From Candidatus Krumholzibacteriia bacterium (GTDB lineage: Bacteria; Krumholzibacteriota; Krumholzibacteriia; JAJRXK01), in assembly GCA_035268685.1 (NCBI GenBank), contig DATFKK010000129.1, positions 1 through 64,000 on the forward strand: a DNA stretch of 64,000 nt. The letters are read 5' to 3'. The stretch's first letter is position 1. Every line of letters begins with the position of its first letter. The notes beneath the pieces are model-generated. The model was not told the origin of the DNA, made no database searches, and saw only the letters and a list, made by a program, of their open reading frames with translations. The position numbers and the translations under genes are program-made. Positions 776 to 62,418 of this stretch are shown here, piece after piece.

Positions 776-1230
776 GGATCGGACCTCCGGGAGCGGGATA
801 GGGGCGAGTCTAGCGCAGGGATCCGCACCCGGCCACGGTGCGCTCCGGAAGATCAGGCAACCCCTTCTTCGGTAGATCTTCTTCGTCGTGACATGACCCC
901 GTCTTCTCACAGAATGGAGTCTCCGGGAATCCCGGGGCGATTCAATCCCGCGCGTGGATTCACCGGAGTCCCGTTCCGCCGCAACGCGGACATCCCCAGC
1001 TTTCGTCACGAGCCCATTGACAGCCTTCTGGGGGTGCACCTTCGCAAGGTGGCCATTCCACGACCGATGCGGTTCCTGACGCCACTGGTTCGACCTCCAC
1101 GGATGTTTCGGCGGTGCATTGCACTTCGACGCCATCCCGTGCCCCGAAACGCCCACCCACGCCCGCTCAGAGCGTCCGAAAACCGGGTGTACAATGCGCG
1201 CAGTCCACACGCCCTCCCGTGGAGTCCGCC
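776..1230. other. Gene-free 455-bp region with a degenerate repeat
   Basis: No convincing coding frame is seen here. Around 952-1001 there is a GC-rich repeat-like stretch that ends in GGACATCCCCAG. It resembles the repeats at 61224-61269 and 62331-62418. A TACAAT hexamer at 1190-1195 is a possible -10 element for the HNH gene that follows; no good -35 was found. Confidence 0.5.
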
Positions 1231-2244
1231 ATGCAGATCCTGAAGCGCCTCGAATCCCTGCGCGCCCGCGAACACGACGCGACCGTCGCGTTGATCGAAG
1301 GCCTCGTCGAATGCCATCGGACACGCGCGCACGTCGATGCGGGGTATCGCTCCGTGTTCCAATTGTTGGTCGAGCGCTTGAAGTACTCGCCCGCCGCGGC
1401 GTCGCGCCGGTTCGCGGCGATGCGGTGCGCGATGCGCTGTCCGTTCGTGATCGACATGTTGCGCGGGCATCGCACGAGCCTCACGGCACTGGCGAAGGTC
1501 GCGTCGTCGTTGGAGTCGTGCCCCGATCCCGATGCGCTGTTGCGCTCGATCGACGGGCTCACGCCCGACGACGTCGATGCGGTCGTGGCCGGACTGCGGC
1601 CGGTTCCGAAGCCGGCCGAGCGGGTGCGCCCGATCGCCGTTGCCCGCCCGGCGCGAAACAACGGTTCCGAGTTGGGGATGGATTGGGGAAGTTCCGCGTC
1701 GGAAGATACGGTGGGGAGTTCCGCTTCCGGGTCGAGGCCGCGCGTAGGGGCTTCGTCCGACACCAGCGAACCTGCGCGAGCTGCCGGACCCGCGACGGCC
1801 GTCGACAGGCCGACGTCTCCTGCAGCCCCGACGCCCTCCGAAGCCCGCGTCTCCGTCTCGTTCACCATGACGCGCGAGGACTTCGACGCTCTGCAGGCCG
1901 CGCGCACGCGCCTGAGTCGCACGCGGCCGAAACCGCTGACCCTCGAGGAGACCGTTCGGACGCTCGTGGCCTACCACGACGAACATCGACCGAAGCGACG
2001 CAGGCGGTCGAATCCTCCGACGGCCCGGCGCACGCGTCACATCCCGCGCGCCACGCGCGAAGCCGTGTTCGAGCGCGACGGTCATCGCTGCGCGTTCGTC
2101 GCACCGGAGGGGACGCGGTGTACGACGACGCACGATCTCCAGATCGATCACGTCGAGCCGTACTGTGAGGGGGGCACGAACGACGTCGCGAACCTCCGGC
2201 TGCTGTGCGGGACGCACAATCGGAGGGTGGCGGAGTTCGTGTGA
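1231..2244 (+). CDS. HNH endonuclease with embedded repeat-derived linker
   Basis: The protein is 337 aa. The ATG at 1231 is preferred over upstream starts because a GTGGAG ribosome site lies just before it and the upstream extension is low-complexity. The N-terminal ~150 residues form an all-helical region (including YSPAAASRRFAAMRCAMR and LRGHRTSLTALAKV) typical of a multicopy HNH family in myxobacteria-like and candidate-phylum genomes. The HNH nuclease is at the C-terminus: RDGHRCAF, a second Cys, the IDHVEPYCEGGTNDVANLR core (DH and N) and LLCGTHN, so the metal and zinc ligands appear intact. The middle linker contains two copies of GSSAS. It is encoded by a palindromic GC-rich stretch (about 1664-1733) related to intergenic repeats elsewhere in the window. 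Biological role unknown: mobile, homing-like or defensive functions are all possible. Confidence 0.8.
   Translation: MQILKRLESLRAREHDATVALIEGLVECHRTRAHVDAGYRSVFQLLVERLKYSPAAASRRFAAMRCAMRCPFVIDMLRGHRTSLTALAKVASSLESCPDPDALLRSIDGLTPDDVDAVVAGLRPVPKPAERVRPIAVARPARNNGSELGMDWGSSASEDTVGSSASGSRPRVGASSDTSEPARAAGPATAVDRPTSPAAPTPSEARVSVSFTMTREDFDALQAARTRLSRTRPKPLTLEETVRTLVAYHDEHRPKRRRRSNPPTARRTRHIPRATREAVFERDGHRCAFVAPEGTRCTTTHDLQIDHVEPYCEGGTNDVANLRLLCGTHNRRVAEFV
1664..1733 (+). repeat. Palindromic GC-rich repeat inside the HNH gene
   Basis: The stretch begins TTGGGGATG and continues with GGGGAAGTTCCGCGTCGGAAG-type and GGGGAGTTCCGC-type segments. The complement resembles the intergenic repeats at 61224-61269 and 62331-62418, which end ACATCCCCAA and contain CTTCCGCnGCGGAAG. 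It is read in frame as the GSSAS-rich linker of the nuclease. Similarity was judged by eye. Confidence 0.5.
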
Positions 2245-2485
2245 GGGGGGTCTCGCACCAGCGCGGGGAAGGGCCTCGAACCCACTCCGTCGAAGTGGTG
2301 CGCCGCGATGCGATTGCCTTCTGCACTGCCGCCGGATGGTGAGTGTCGCCGCCGCCTTTCGCCGACGCGCCGGCTGTACCCTGGTCGGGTGTTGGGCTCG
2401 CCGTGCCACCCGCTACAGGGATGTGAACCACCTCGCCACGACAACCTTTTCACCGCCCCGAATCATTGCACAATAGTCACTTCCG

Positions 2486-3301
2486 CTACGGCAACCCCTC
2501 GTTCCCGTAGTACTCCCAGAAGAAATGAAGATTGCCCTGGCCCTTGCCCAGCTGCACGCCCTCGGTGATGGCGCGGGTGACGTAGTCCTTGGCCTGGGTC
2601 ACCGCGTCGTCCATCGAACGACCACGCGCGAGCAGCGCCGCGATCGCCGAGCTGAGCGTGCACCCCGTTCCGTGCGTGACGTTGCCGGGAACCCGCTCGG
2701 CCTCGAGCACGTGCTCGGTGCCGGTGGTCACGAGGAGGTCGTCGGCATCGCCCCGCCGGTGTCCGCCCTTCAGCAGCACGGCCACATCGCAGCTCTGGTG
2801 CAGAGACTTCGCCGCGGCGCGGAGTTCGGTGTCGTCGTCGGCGAGCTCGCGCTCGAGCAGCATGCCGGCTTCGGGGACGTTCGGCGTCACGAGGTGCGCC
2901 AGCGGCAGCAGCCGATCCCGGACCGCTTCGACCGCGTCGTCCTCGAGCAGGGGATCGCCGCTGCCGGCGACCATCACCGGGTCGAGCACCACGTTCGGCA
3001 GCCCGTGTTCGCGTAGCGCGCGGGCCACGGCGTCGACGATCTCGGCGTTGGCCAGCATGCCGATCTTCACCGCGGCCACGTCGAAGTCCTCGACCACGGC
3101 GTCGATCTGCGCCCGCACGAAGGCCGGGTCCAGGGCCACGAAGCCCCGTACCCGCTGGGTGTTCTGCGCGGTGACGGCGGTGATCGCGCTGGTGCCGAAG
3201 ACGCCGAGCGCCGAGAAGGTCTTCAGGTCGGCCTGGATCCCGGCGCCGCCCCCGCTGTCGCTGCCGGCGATGGTCAGGGTGACGGGCATCGTGCTGCTCA
3301 T
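2486..3301 (-). CDS. thiD: Hydroxymethylpyrimidine/phosphomethylpyrimidine kinase ThiD
   Basis: The 271-aa ribokinase-fold enzyme phosphorylates HMP and HMP-P in cytosolic thiamine biosynthesis. Family features visible are the N-terminal [20 protein letters not shown] segment, the KIGML motif, [25 protein letters not shown] and the anion-hole/catalytic [13 protein letters not shown] near residue 215. The length matches stand-alone ThiD. The ATG at 3301 is chosen because a GGAGG lies just upstream and the protein then starts seven residues before the first conserved strand. It is transcribed divergently from the EamA transporter, with 73 bp between them. No TPP riboswitch was recognised, and no other thiamine gene is in the window. 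Confidence 0.95.
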
Positions 3302-3374: not shown

Positions 3375-4268
3375 ATGCGCTTCGACCGGGTGACCCTCGC
3401 GCTGCTCACGGTGCAGCTTCTCTTCGCGATCCACTACGTGGCCGCGAAGCACCTGCTCGAGCACATCCCGCCGCCGGCGTGGGCCGCGCTGCGGGTGACC
3501 GGGGCCGCCGCGATCATGCTGGCCTTCACCCGGCACGACTGGCCGCGGTGGCCGCGCTCACGAAGGATGTGGGCCCGCCTCGCCCTGCTCAGCGTGTTCG
3601 GTGTGATCGTCAACCAGATCCTCTTCGTCGAAGGCCTGTCGCGCACGGTGCCCTCGCACAGTGCGCTGATCAACACGTCGATCCCCGTCGTGACGCTGCT
3701 CGTCGCCGTCCTGCTCCGACAGGAACACTTCGACCGGCGCAAGGTCGCCGCGGTGGCGGTGGCCCTGACCGGCGTGCTGATCCTGCTTCGCGTCGAGGAC
3801 TTCGACCCATCGGCGGGAACCGTGCAGGGAGACCTGTTGACACTGGCCAACGCCAGTTCCTTCTCGGTCTTCCTGGTCTTGTCGCGGCCGGTGGCGCGCG
3901 AACTCGGGGCCAGGATCGTCACCCCGATCGTGTTCGGGATCGGGGCGATCGCGATCACCCTCTTCGGGCTGCCCTCGTTGGTCTCGACGAACTGGTCGGC
4001 GGTGCCCCCGCTGGTGTGGCTGCTGGCGGTCGTGATCGTGCTGGGGCCGACGGTCGGGACCTATGCGCTGAACGTGTGGGCCCTGCGACGGGTCGAATCG
4101 TCACGGGTGGCCCTGTTCGTGTACCTGCAATTCGTCCTGGCGGCTCCGTTGTCGGCGTGGTTGCTCGACGAACCGCTGTCGCTGCGGTTGATCCCGGCGG
4201 CCGCGTTGGTGTTCCTGGGCGTTGCGCTGACCCGGCGTCGTCCCACGCGACCGACGCCGGCGACCTGA
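3375..4268 (+). CDS. EamA/DMT-family membrane transporter
   Basis: The 297-aa protein is a drug/metabolite transporter superfamily member with about ten hydrophobic segments arranged as two EamA repeats. Each repeat shows typical features: the first-repeat segment YVAAKHLLEHIPPPAWAALR and the second-repeat end YLQFVLAAPLSAWLLDEPLS followed by AAALVFLGVALTRRR. It would sit in the inner membrane and export or import a small metabolite. The substrate cannot be inferred. It lies divergent to thiD, but this alone does not argue for a thiamine-related substrate. Length and topology match the family. Confidence 0.85.
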   Translation: MRFDRVTLALLTVQLLFAIHYVAAKHLLEHIPPPAWAALRVTGAAAIMLAFTRHDWPRWPRSRRMWARLALLSVFGVIVNQILFVEGLSRTVPSHSALINTSIPVVTLLVAVLLRQEHFDRRKVAAVAVALTGVLILLRVEDFDPSAGTVQGDLLTLANASSFSVFLVLSRPVARELGARIVTPIVFGIGAIAITLFGLPSLVSTNWSAVPPLVWLLAVVIVLGPTVGTYALNVWALRRVESSRVALFVYLQFVLAAPLSAWLLDEPLSLRLIPAAALVFLGVALTRRRPTRPTPAT

Positions 4269-5702: not shown

Positions 5703-6003
5703 GGGCATGGTCCTCCGGAATGGAGTCAGGTCGTCGAGTTGTACTCTCGGACGAGCGCCGCCGCGCGAGGGAGCGCCAGCTCGAGAGAGGCGATTGCTCG
5801 GGAGCCTGAGCGGGGTTCAGGTCCGGCACCGGCGGGACGGTACGTCGACCTCCACCGGAACCGCGGGGGCAACCTAACACAGATGGGAGCCCCGCGGGAA
5901 GCCTCTCGATTCCCCGGAGTTCCCCGATCCACCGGATTCTGCCGCCGGAATCGAAGAAACGGGGAAGAGAGAGTCGAAGCCAGGTGAAGACCCGGGCCGG
6001 GCC
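5703..6003. other. Intergenic region with a degenerate palindromic repeat
   Basis: This 301-bp spacer holds no convincing gene. The segment 5905-5955 (ATTCCCCGGAGTTCCCCG, then CCGGATTCTGCCGCCGGAAT) looks like a degenerate member of the dispersed GC-rich repeat family. It shares an ATTC-CCGGAGT-CCCG core with 956-975. No promoter could be assigned with confidence. Confidence 0.4.
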
Positions 6004-7011
6004 TCAGATCCGGCCGATGAAGTGGGTCCCGCCCTGACCGTCGATCGCAGCGTGCAGGCTCGCGGGATCGGTCACCAGGGCCCGCTTCCCCCCCTGCTCG
6101 AGGAAGTCGACCACGGCGTCGATCTTCGGCCCCATGCTCCCCGACGGGAAGTGCCCCTCGGCGCGGAGCCGCTGGATCTCCTGCAGCGTGACCGCGCCGA
6201 GCGCCCGCTCCTCGGGAGTGCCGAAGCCGACGTAGACCTGTGGCACCGCGGTCAGGATGATGAACAGGTCGGCCTCGATCTCGCGCGCGAGCACGGCACT
6301 CGTGAGGTCCTTGTCGATGACCGCCTCCACGCCCTTGTAGGCACGCGTCTCGGGATCGATCACGATCGGGATTCCCCCGCCCCCACCGGCCAGCACGATG
6401 TGCCCGCGCAGCGCGCTGTCGCGGATGGTGCGGCGCTGGATCACCTTGAGCGGTTTCGGAGACGGGACGAGCCGACGCCAGCCGCGCCCGGCGTCCTCGG
6501 TGATGCTCCATCCGAGTTCGCCCTTCCGTTCCTTCGCGGTGTCTTCGTCGTAGAAGGGGCCGATGGGCTTGGTCGGATCGTTGAAGGCCGGATCGTCGAC
6601 GTCGACGACCACCTGGGTGACGACGGTCTCGACGTAGCGCTTGATCTCGCGCTGGCGCAACTGGTTCAGCAGCGCCTGCTGCAGGATGTAGCCCAGCGAT
6701 CCCTCGGTCTGGGCGACCAGCACGTCGAGGGGCATCGATGGCACCTCGGCCGTGGCCGTCTCCTGGATCAGCATGAGGTTGCCCACCTGAGGACCGTTGC
6801 CATGCGTGATCACCAGGTTGTAGCCGCGCTCGATGAGCAGCAGGAGGTGATCGCAGAGGACCTGAGCGTTGCGCTCGTGGTCCTCGATCGTTCCCGTCTC
6901 CCCCTTCTGGATGAAGGCGTGGCCGCCCACCGCGACCACCGCGGTCGGTGTCGGCACGGGATGGGGATGCGATGCGGGATGGCCGGGGGCCTGCAGGGGA
7001 TCGACGTTCAT
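6004..7011 (-). CDS. arcC: Carbamate kinase
   Basis: The 335-aa amino-acid-kinase-fold enzyme interconverts ATP plus carbamate and ADP plus carbamoyl phosphate. Recognised motifs are AVGGHAFIQKGETGT near the N-terminus, LVITHGNGPQVGNLM, the VVDVDDPAFNDPTKPIGPFY stretch specific to carbamate kinases, HIVLAGGGGGIPIV, VIDKDLTSAVLA and the SGSMGPKIDA motif near the end. Length is slightly above the usual ~310 because of an N-terminal extension of about 25 residues rich in Pro and His. No arcA, arcB or other arginine-deiminase-pathway genes are nearby, so the direction of use (ATP formation or carbamoyl-phosphate supply) cannot be told. Confidence 0.95.
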   Translation of the reverse strand: MNVDPLQAPGHPASHPHPVPTPTAVVAVGGHAFIQKGETGTIEDHERNAQVLCDHLLLLIERGYNLVITHGNGPQVGNLMLIQETATAEVPSMPLDVLVAQTEGSLGYILQQALLNQLRQREIKRYVETVVTQVVVDVDDPAFNDPTKPIGPFYDEDTAKERKGELGWSITEDAGRGWRRLVPSPKPLKVIQRRTIRDSALRGHIVLAGGGGGIPIVIDPETRAYKGVEAVIDKDLTSAVLAREIEADLFIILTAVPQVYVGFGTPEERALGAVTLQEIQRLRAEGHFPSGSMGPKIDAVVDFLEQGGKRALVTDPASLHAAIDGQGGTHFIGRI

Positions 7012-7924: not shown

Positions 7925-8749
7925 TTGCGAGGACCCGGTTCCGTCGTCTGTCCCGAGTGCGGGCGGCTCGTCGAACTCGGCGAGTCCCGGTGCCCGAACT
8001 GCGGGCGTTGGCAACCGTCCCTGTTCGGGCTCGCCCCGATCCTGCAGCGCACCTTCGGCACGCTCGAGGTCACACAGCTGATCTTCTGGGGTTGCTGCAT
8101 CCTGTACGCCCTGTCGCTCGTGCTCGATCCAGGGGCGGTCATGCAGAGCCGGGGCTTCTTCAACATCCTGTCGCCGAGCAGCCAGGCACTGTTGCAGCTG
8201 GGGATGACCAGCGGCGGCCTCGTCGATCGCTTCGGACTGTGGTGGACGCCGCTCTCGGCCACCTACCTGCACGGCAGCCTCCTGCACATCTTCTTCAACA
8301 TGATGTGGTTGCGGATCCTGGGTCCACAGCTCGAGCACGACCTCGGTCCGGGACGCTTCTTCCTGCTGTACACTCTCGCCGGTGCCGGCGGATTCGTCGT
8401 GTCCAACACGGTCACCGGGAATCCGACCGTCGGAGCCTCCGGTGCGATCTTCGGACTGCTCGCCGCCACCATCATCCTGGCGCGACACCACGGCGGCGCC
8501 TGGGGACAGGCGGTGGGCCAACAGGCGATCATGTACGCGGTACTGCTGTTCGCCTTCGGCTTCGTCTCGCGCACCACGAACAACTGGGCACACGCCGGCG
8601 GCTTCGTGGTCGGAGGCCTGGCGATGTTCGTCCTGCTCAAGCAGAGCCAACGTGCCGAGGGTCCGCTCGTGCAACTGGGGGCGCTGGCACTGGCGCTGGC
8701 CACCGTCGGTGCTGTGATCGCCAGCTTCGTCGCCGTCCGTTTCGGGTGA
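7925..8749 (+). CDS. Rhomboid-family intramembrane protease with N-terminal zinc ribbon
   Basis: The 274-aa product starts at a TTG two bases after the nfu stop, which suggests translational coupling; there is no ATG before the conserved region. Residues ~9-25 form a small zinc ribbon (CPECG then CPNCG). About six membrane helices follow. Rhomboid hallmarks are HGSLLHIFFNMMWLRILG (His/Asn of the oxyanion side), the catalytic serine in GASGAIFG near residue 178, and the catalytic His in NWAHAGGFVVGG. The catalytic pair is therefore present. The zinc ribbon faces the cytosol if the fold is standard. Substrates unknown. Confidence 0.88.
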   Translation: MRGPGSVVCPECGRLVELGESRCPNCGRWQPSLFGLAPILQRTFGTLEVTQLIFWGCCILYALSLVLDPGAVMQSRGFFNILSPSSQALLQLGMTSGGLVDRFGLWWTPLSATYLHGSLLHIFFNMMWLRILGPQLEHDLGPGRFFLLYTLAGAGGFVVSNTVTGNPTVGASGAIFGLLAATIILARHHGGAWGQAVGQQAIMYAVLLFAFGFVSRTTNNWAHAGGFVVGGLAMFVLLKQSQRAEGPLVQLGALALALATVGAVIASFVAVRFG

Positions 8750-8760
8750 GGAGGACCGCC

Positions 8761-9510
8761 ATGACGCGATGGATCACGACTCTCGCGCTGCTGACCGTCG
8801 CCACGATCGCCACTGCCCAGGACGTCCCGCGCTTCGAGTTCGAACTCGAGGGGGCCGCCGTCTGGCAGTCGAAGAACGACGTCCAGATCCCCAACGACGC
8901 CTCGGCCACGCGTTTCTCGCTGGTCGACCTGGTGGGCAACGGACCGGTGGCGGCGGGCAGGCTGACGTTGCGTTGGAACCTGAGCGACCGTCATCAGCTC
9001 CACGCGCTCGGCGCGCCGCTGCAGCTGGTGGAGTCGGGCACGCCGGACACCGGGATCTCCTTCGCCGGAGAGACCTTCGCCGCGGGGCGGGAGGCCGAGG
9101 CCACCTACCGGTTCAACTCGTGGCGCATCGGCTACCGCTACCGCCTGGTGTCGGGCCCACGTGGCGACGCCTGGATCGGTTTCACCGCCAAGCTGCGCGA
9201 TGCCGAGGTGAAGCTGGAACAGGACGGGCTGAGTGCGAACGACACCGACCTCGGCTTCGTCCCGCTGCTGCACCTCGCCGGCCGACGCTTCTTCACCGAC
9301 ACCTTCAGTGGCTCGCTCGAGGTCGAGGCCCTGGGTGGCGGGCCGGGAAGAGCGATCGACGGTGCCGCAACGCTGCGCTACGGCCGTCGACACGGCTGGG
9401 GTGTGAGCGTGGGCTACCGCACCATCGAGGGTGGGGCCGACGTCGATGCGGTCTACAACTTCGCCTGGTTGCACTTCGCGGTCGTGGCCGTCGACGTGCC
9501 GTTGCGTTGA
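8761..9510 (+). CDS. Predicted outer-membrane beta-barrel protein
   Basis: The 249-aa protein starts at an ATG behind GAGGAGG, 11 bp after the rhomboid gene. It has a clear signal peptide (ending ATIATAQ) and alternating polar/hydrophobic strands such as FEFELEGAAVWQSKND, WRIGYRYRLVSGPRGDAWIGF and HGWGVSVGYRTIEGG. The C-terminus finishes WLHFAVVAVDVPLR, like the closing strand of a small barrel. No family is recognised. It may be an eight- to ten-stranded OMP; position in the nfu-rhomboid run suggests co-transcription but gives no functional link. Confidence 0.65.
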   Translation: MTRWITTLALLTVATIATAQDVPRFEFELEGAAVWQSKNDVQIPNDASATRFSLVDLVGNGPVAAGRLTLRWNLSDRHQLHALGAPLQLVESGTPDTGISFAGETFAAGREAEATYRFNSWRIGYRYRLVSGPRGDAWIGFTAKLRDAEVKLEQDGLSANDTDLGFVPLLHLAGRRFFTDTFSGSLEVEALGGGPGRAIDGAATLRYGRRHGWGVSVGYRTIEGGADVDAVYNFAWLHFAVVAVDVPLR

Positions 9511-61223: not shown

Positions 61224-61269
61224 ACTTCCGCTGCGGAAGCGCCGACTTCCCCCGCGGAACATCCCCAAT
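61224..61269 (+). repeat. Palindromic GC repeat, copy A
   Basis: ACTTCCGCTGCGGAAGCG (hairpin CTTCCGC-T-GCGGAAG) is followed by ACTTCC, then CGCGGAACATCCCCAA. It lies between the kinase start (61147) and the propeller gene end (61281). It is in the same orientation as copy B at 62331-62418. Confidence 0.75.
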
Positions 61270-62330: not shown

Positions 62331-62418
62331 ACTTCCGCCGCGGAAGCGCACCCACTTTCGCTGCGGAAGCGCGAACCCCGTCGCACGTGCGCCCACTTCC
62401 GCACCGGAACATCCCCAA
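62331..62418 (+). repeat. Palindromic GC repeat, copy B
   Basis: Three modules occur in order: ACTTCCGCCGCGGAAGCG, ACTTTCGCTGCGGAAGCG, then ACTTCCGCACCGGAACATCC and CCAAC. The first two are hairpins. The end module matches the end of copy A. The repeat lies between the lipoprotein gene end (62449) and the propeller gene start (62285). Confidence 0.75.

Follow-up and report, generated by a model that had tools for sequence, protein, structure and literature searches.

Our results reveal an association between a family of multi-copy HNH nucleases and short palindromic repeats, and the co-diversification of the two partners. We consider the chances about even that the nuclease, which has a DUF222-like N-terminal domain, and a lineage-specific double-stranded palindrome form a pair comparable to REP/RAYT but built on an unrelated enzyme. 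A broader reading, to which we give somewhat less than an even chance, is that of a widespread system, selfish or domesticated, that spans several phyla as an unrelated counterpart of REP/RAYT: each DUF222-like HNH nuclease would recognise the palindrome of its own lineage, which lies inside and at the edges of the nuclease gene, and would spread it. With Y1 transposases missing from most palindrome-rich genomes, the HNH protein is the likeliest partner of the palindromes.

In the mechanism that we propose, the protein, which is probably a dimer, would recognise the palindrome through its N-terminal helical domain, and the HNH domain would nick or cut at or near the palindrome, with TTCCGCNGCGGAA or CTTGCGCCGGCGCAAG as candidate sites for the window protein and a homologue from the genus named g7 here. 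Repair and recombination at such sites could then convert and duplicate the nuclease genes and, besides, copy palindromes into intergenic DNA. Recognition, cleavage and nuclease-driven spread of the palindromes are what we infer, cutting and copying being deduced from the nuclease domain, the multi-copy state and the location of the repeat. If true, the HNH-palindrome system could also explain palindromic repeats that have no known transposase, and nuclease genes with a matching palindrome in each lineage offer a candidate, open to testing, for a second mechanism by which such repeats are made and maintained. Because the gene sequence itself indicates the probable site, they would also supply many natural enzyme-site pairs. 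No earlier description of a pairing between HNH nucleases and palindromes was found in the open-licence literature.

Repeat modules inside an HNH gene and between genes

The window, i.e. the whole stretch of DNA that was analysed (64 kb), contains an HNH nuclease gene and two kinds of repeat module, named here the A-type palindrome (CTTCCGCNGCGGAAG) and the B module (TTCCNNCGCGGAACATCCCCAA, with 20 fixed bases). Their coordinates are collected in Table 1. A-type palindromes are matched seven times in the window for 0.86 matches expected, and none of 100 shuffles scored as high. For the B module, nothing close was found in the 64 kb beyond the in-gene copy and the two intergenic ones. The in-gene copy lies on the minus strand with a single mismatch, in line with the first-pass annotation, which had seen in this coding segment a reverse-complement match to the intergenic repeats. 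The same annotation had placed degenerate relatives near 952-1001 and 5905-5955. The first is genuine though degenerate (TTCCGCCGCAACGCGGACATCCCCAG); the second was rejected, no repeat copy being present there. Finally, its view that the repeat encodes a linker agrees with the AlphaFold model, in which residues 145-202 are disordered (mostly pLDDT <50).

Table 1. Coordinates of the HNH gene and of the repeat modules in the window
Feature	Position	Strand	Remarks
Degenerate B module 5' of the HNH gene	974-999	+	TTCCGCCGCAACGCGGACATCCCCAG; similarity of paralogous HNH units starts about here
Leader common to the C190, C158 and C184 HNH copies	990-1230	+	TTGACAG, CAGGGTGTACAAT
HNH nuclease gene, 337 aa	1231-2244	+	16 stretches match in the genome
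N-terminal helical domain, residues 1-126	1231-1608	+	pLDDT 94; weak DUF222 match
B module copy of the HNH gene	1683-1704	minus	reads TTCCGACGCGGAACTTCCCCAA; 1 mismatch over the 20 fixed bases of TTCCNNCGCGGAACATCCCCAA
Palindrome core within the HNH gene	1691-1705	.	GTTCCGCGTCGGAAG; 2 mismatches to the A type
Second module piece of the linker, degenerate	1713-1729	.	GGGGAGTTCCGCTTCCG; direct reading
HNH domain core, residues 297-328	2119-2214	+	Pfam PF01844, 26.5 bits vs cut-off 21.4
Degenerate A palindrome 3' of the HNH gene	2479-2494	+	3 mismatches
A palindrome, intergenic	61225-61239	.	exact
B module, intergenic	61247-61268	+	exact (0 mismatches)
A palindrome, intergenic	62332-62346	.	exact
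A palindrome, intergenic	62355-62369	.	1 mismatch
B module, intergenic	62397-62418	+	2 mismatches

The HNH protein and its gene family

The HNH protein is composed of a DUF222-like N-terminal helical domain, a disordered linker, a two-helix middle segment and a C-terminal HNH domain. The window protein reaches 18.8 bits against DUF222 (PF02720), below the cut-off of 24.4, and this family is matched by 12 of the 24 N-terminal domains of relatives (best E 8.6e-9). Most top-ranked fold matches of the N-terminal model belong to ParB/Spo0J-parS at a non-significant level (E about 1, TM 0.39-0.50 by query), and the N-terminal domains gave no sequence match to ParB families. Since this resemblance is not significant, palindrome binding by the N-terminal domain is put forward as hypothetical. 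At the other end of the protein, the HNH part resembles IscB and the HNH domain of Cas9, and PADLOC reports a type II restriction enzyme match across it. The IscB match (34.8 bits vs a cut-off of 175) is confined to this HNH part and falls short of the full-length model. A phage-borne element was also considered and rejected, as 34 viral contigs match the HNH part only and never the full protein.

Sixteen stretches matching the protein are found on 13 contigs of the source genome. Ten contigs are cut at their ends, which is what near-identical repeats that disrupt assembly should produce. Contigs that break inside HNH genes are C132, C25, C139, C49, C54, C17, C27, C192, C184 and C119. The 3' HNH parts are 97-100% identical within C17/C49/C54 and within C27/C119/C192, which suggests, from sequence comparison, recent duplication or gene conversion. 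Relatives are spread over Krumholzibacteriota, Eisenbacteria, Latescibacterota, Elusimicrobia, Myxococcota and Bdellovibrionota, among others. A genome of the same genus (G001) is devoid of both the nuclease and the repeat.

Distribution of the repeat in the source genome

The source genome of the window (G000; 4.59 Mb, 202 contigs, 99% complete) contains 56 exact sites of the A palindrome CTTCCGCNGCGGAAG (TTCCGC type), whereas the reversed control has none and each of 57 relatives has 0 or 1; the absence of the repeat elsewhere in the genome, which the first-pass annotation had regarded as fatal to its proposal, is thus not what is found. Allowing at most 1 mismatch, 172 forward plus reverse matches were counted genome-wide vs 2 for the control pattern. 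The module tail GGAACATCCCCA occurs at 32 sites and its control at none.

The location of the modules was analysed in a 368-kb sample with a simple codon-usage gene caller (87% coding), where 54 of the 65 modules are intergenic. Their density is 0.90/kb in HNH CDS, 0.016/kb in other CDS and 1.09/kb in intergenic DNA; the sample was picked partly around repeats and HNH genes, so that the comparison between classes is fair, while the absolute values should not be taken as averages over the genome. HNH CDS are 57-fold denser than other CDS (p=3e-8), and control patterns with the gap altered by one gave almost no matches. The modules are also present at the edges of HNH units. Indeed, when paralogous HNH units are compared, their upstream similarity starts close to a module-like tail (CATCC[AC]CAG), and several copies stop at a module just past HNH, some of these edge modules being degenerate. 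On the first-pass question of whether repeats cluster inside or next to HNH copies, the answer is thus a concentration in HNH genes relative to other genes and an occurrence at unit edges. Among intergenic modules with a gene on both sides, convergent gaps host 14 modules vs 5.0 expected by length and divergent gaps 6 vs 15.1. Modules also form pairs and arrays. Outside HNH genes, the sample contains a single clear coding array, which belongs to an outer-membrane-like protein on C165. At this locus (L111, 6447-6640), six palindrome copies with a 36-nt spacing, most or all of them in open frame, sit in the N-terminal part of the protein (TSAAEV.. repeats).

These features could alternatively result from REP-like palindromes mobilised by another enzyme, the HNH genes merely tolerating them, having flexible linkers and being under weak selection. 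The disorder of the HNH linker, the array hosted by one other gene linker (C165) and the REP-like intergenic and mainly convergent position of the dispersed copies are in its favour. Nevertheless, the 57-fold excess in HNH CDS over other CDS speaks against mere tolerance, and this explanation appears unlikely to us.

Comparison with known systems

Bacteria commonly have short dispersed palindromes; to our knowledge, the GTAG type is the sole class with an accepted enzyme partner. The HNH-palindrome layout is REP/RAYT-like in that short dispersed palindromes are mostly intergenic, enriched at convergent ends, paired or arrayed, and lineage-specific. Moreover, the enzyme gene resides in the same genome and is often flanked by the repeat: several copies in the source genome display a module-like 5' boundary and a 3' module, some of them degenerate, and 6 of 8 genes sampled in g7 have the repeat upstream. 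Yet the layout fails two defining features, the tag and the Y1 enzyme. By inspection, no GTAG tag is common to the palindrome contexts, the flanks being GAC/CAC..GAAG or a CATCCCCAA tail. An HNH nuclease takes the place of the Y1 (HUH) transposase; besides, the dyads are loopless and perfect or near-perfect, copies lie within the enzyme's own CDS and the enzyme genes are many. No Y1 transposase (PF01797) was detected in G000, G007, G011, G034, G026, G043 and G049, with positive controls; G052, a member of g7, has one weak match interrupted by a stop, and G005 has some. A RAYT was consequently rejected as mobiliser, the genome of the window having no Y1 transposase, and the lack of this enzyme in most palindrome-bearing genomes also argues against mobilisation from outside the HNH family. 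The first-pass likening to RAYT/REP in spirit accordingly stands for the intergenic, convergent, paired and enzyme-flanking layout, and fails for the tag and the enzyme.

Mobile palindromes of organelles (GC clusters, double-hairpin elements) share genomes with homing endonuclease genes. They differ from the present case in being organellar and in involving other nuclease families. The DUF222/13E12 HNH proteins (REP13E12 of mycobacteria) offer a parallel with their multi-copy repeat-like genes, DUF222 N-terminus and C-terminal HNH, except that the window protein is under the DUF222 cut-off. REP13E12/HNH/DUF222 is listed as a repetitive element (PMC10589994), and no palindrome association of DUF222/13E12 proteins was found in the open-licence literature. 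REPs located inside genes are known too (PMC3733652, PMC8266576). CGTC-tagged REPs, including Rickettsia palindromic elements, likewise have in-gene copies, apparently without a dedicated transposase (PMC3733652). The likeness lies in palindromic repeats that are found in genes as well; the difference lies in the absence of a visible CGTC tag here and in the concentration of in-gene copies in one nuclease family.

Lineage-specific palindromes in other HNH genes

HNH genes of several phyla carry different palindromes, a situation that mobilisation by another enzyme does not readily account for. Those found within HNH ORFs elsewhere include ACTCCCN6GGGAGT, TTACCGNCN6GNCGGTAA, GTCTCAACGTTGAGAC, ACTCCCGCNGCGGGAGT, CTTGCGCCGGCGCAAG, ACTTGTCCCGGGACAAGT and ACCTCCGCAGCGGAGGT. 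The four species of g7 have 126, 171, 113 and 82 copies of the palindrome CTTGCGCCGGCGCAAG, which is missing from 54 other genomes. ACTCCCN6GGGAGT has 12 copies in G005, 8 in G026, 8 in G049 and 6 in G043, with 3 and 3 in two further HNH-bearing genomes; the TTACCG type has 6 in G039 and one in each of three other genomes. Genome searches thus indicate that the dispersal of four palindrome types is genome-specific, i.e. that they are scattered only where the nuclease carries them; as every palindrome used in these searches had first been noticed in an HNH gene, this result is a test of specificity and not an unbiased census. In some lineages, the palindrome is mainly or only in HNH genes (3/3 in G031, also G020 and G053), and lineages where it occurs only there again speak against an external mobiliser. 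In G026, a palindrome-spacer-palindrome element of ~62 bp is found both in an HNH linker and in intergenic DNA. Conservation of the GSSAS linker in orthologues from repeat-free genomes, which would have told against the earlier proposal, is not observed: linkers differ, often with another lineage-specific palindrome. One palindrome, ACTTCGCTGGCGAAGT, recurs in HNH genes from distant phyla (L245, Spirochaetaceae; L224, Deltaproteobacteria); these genes do not group as sisters in the tree. A 58-bp direct repeat array lies directly 3' of an HNH gene at L118 (G022, 3578-3836).

DNA-level selection and co-diversification

Selection on the palindromes acts at the level of DNA and not of protein, as indicated by codon shuffles, by their being read in several frames and by the dyad symmetry that their centres retain. 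When synonymous codons were shuffled with the protein kept fixed, the palindrome of 19 of 54 HNH genes (some being the same gene fetched twice) was reached by at most 1 of 100 shuffles, for about 0.5 such genes expected. These shuffles led us to reject a protein-level coincidence, in which low-complexity Ser/Ala/Gly linkers of a GC-rich genome would be encoded by palindromic DNA by chance. The imperfect palindrome of the window gene and the C158 copy, which taken alone is not unusual (64/100 shuffles), would suit such a coincidence; 19 genes at 1% or better, the match of the in-gene copy to the long B module beyond the palindrome alone, and intergenic copies that encode nothing leave it hardly any credibility. 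Many HNH genes have no significant palindrome in this test (L056, L060, L074, L077, L195, L202 and others), which implies that the palindrome is not obligatory.

The search pattern did not constrain the six-base centres of the ACTCCC type, and 6 of the 13 distinct types have a perfectly self-complementary centre, for 1/64 expected (p=2e-8). Such centres would be easier to reconcile with a protein dimer bound to DNA than with a loop in RNA. Their bearing is on the view that the palindromes are RNA hairpins acting in termination or mRNA stability, or in autoregulation within the HNH mRNA. The location at convergent 3' ends is what one would expect from hairpins; these would nonetheless leave the centre free, and the dyad centres stay self-complementary and loopless even where the pattern did not require it. 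An RNA role is therefore disfavoured and seems very improbable.

Mapped onto a tree built from 46 HNH regions, palindrome types require 19 changes for a minimum of 17 and a shuffled mean of 33.3, and none of 200 shuffles was as low, species relatedness contributing to and confounding this co-inheritance of palindrome and nuclease. Two sister paralogues of G053 carry different palindromes, showing that switching happens.

Recurring palindrome positions in genus g7

All eight HNH genes sampled in g7 carry the palindrome, with 18 copies at three recurring positions in differing frames: around codons 135-163 (read LRRRKS), around codon 250 (LAPAQV) and downstream of the HNH domain. Elsewhere, 33 copies fall between genes and 4 at the edges of other CDS. 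In several genes, two copies about 260 bp apart bracket the HNH-coding segment. The recurring positions overlie conserved segments without obvious length change, which is a further point against palindromes of foreign origin being tolerated in permissive linkers. In an empty-site comparison, homologous blocks were found in g7 and intergenic orthology could not be established.

A palindrome is also located 90-230 bp 5' of the HNH gene in 6 of the 8 sampled genes. Together with the weak ParB-parS resemblance and the PADLOC restriction enzyme match over the HNH part, this upstream position could betray a protein acting mainly as a DNA-binding regulator or a domesticated restriction-like enzyme, with own-gene palindromes as self-control operators and intergenic ones as a regulon or chromosome-organising sites. 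Such a role is at odds with the preference for convergent gaps and the avoidance of divergent, promoter-bearing ones (6 vs 15.1 expected), with the rapid turnover between lineages, including a same-genus genome without both parts, and with multi-copy genes that, many being cut by contig ends, resemble a repeat family. We regard it as quite unlikely, more so than mobilisation by another enzyme, and retain the pairing of nuclease and palindrome as the preferred reading. Other dispersed repeat families, unrelated to the palindrome, occupy ~8520-8820 and 6540-6810 of locus L247 (G034:C11) and have tens of copies across three g7 genomes.
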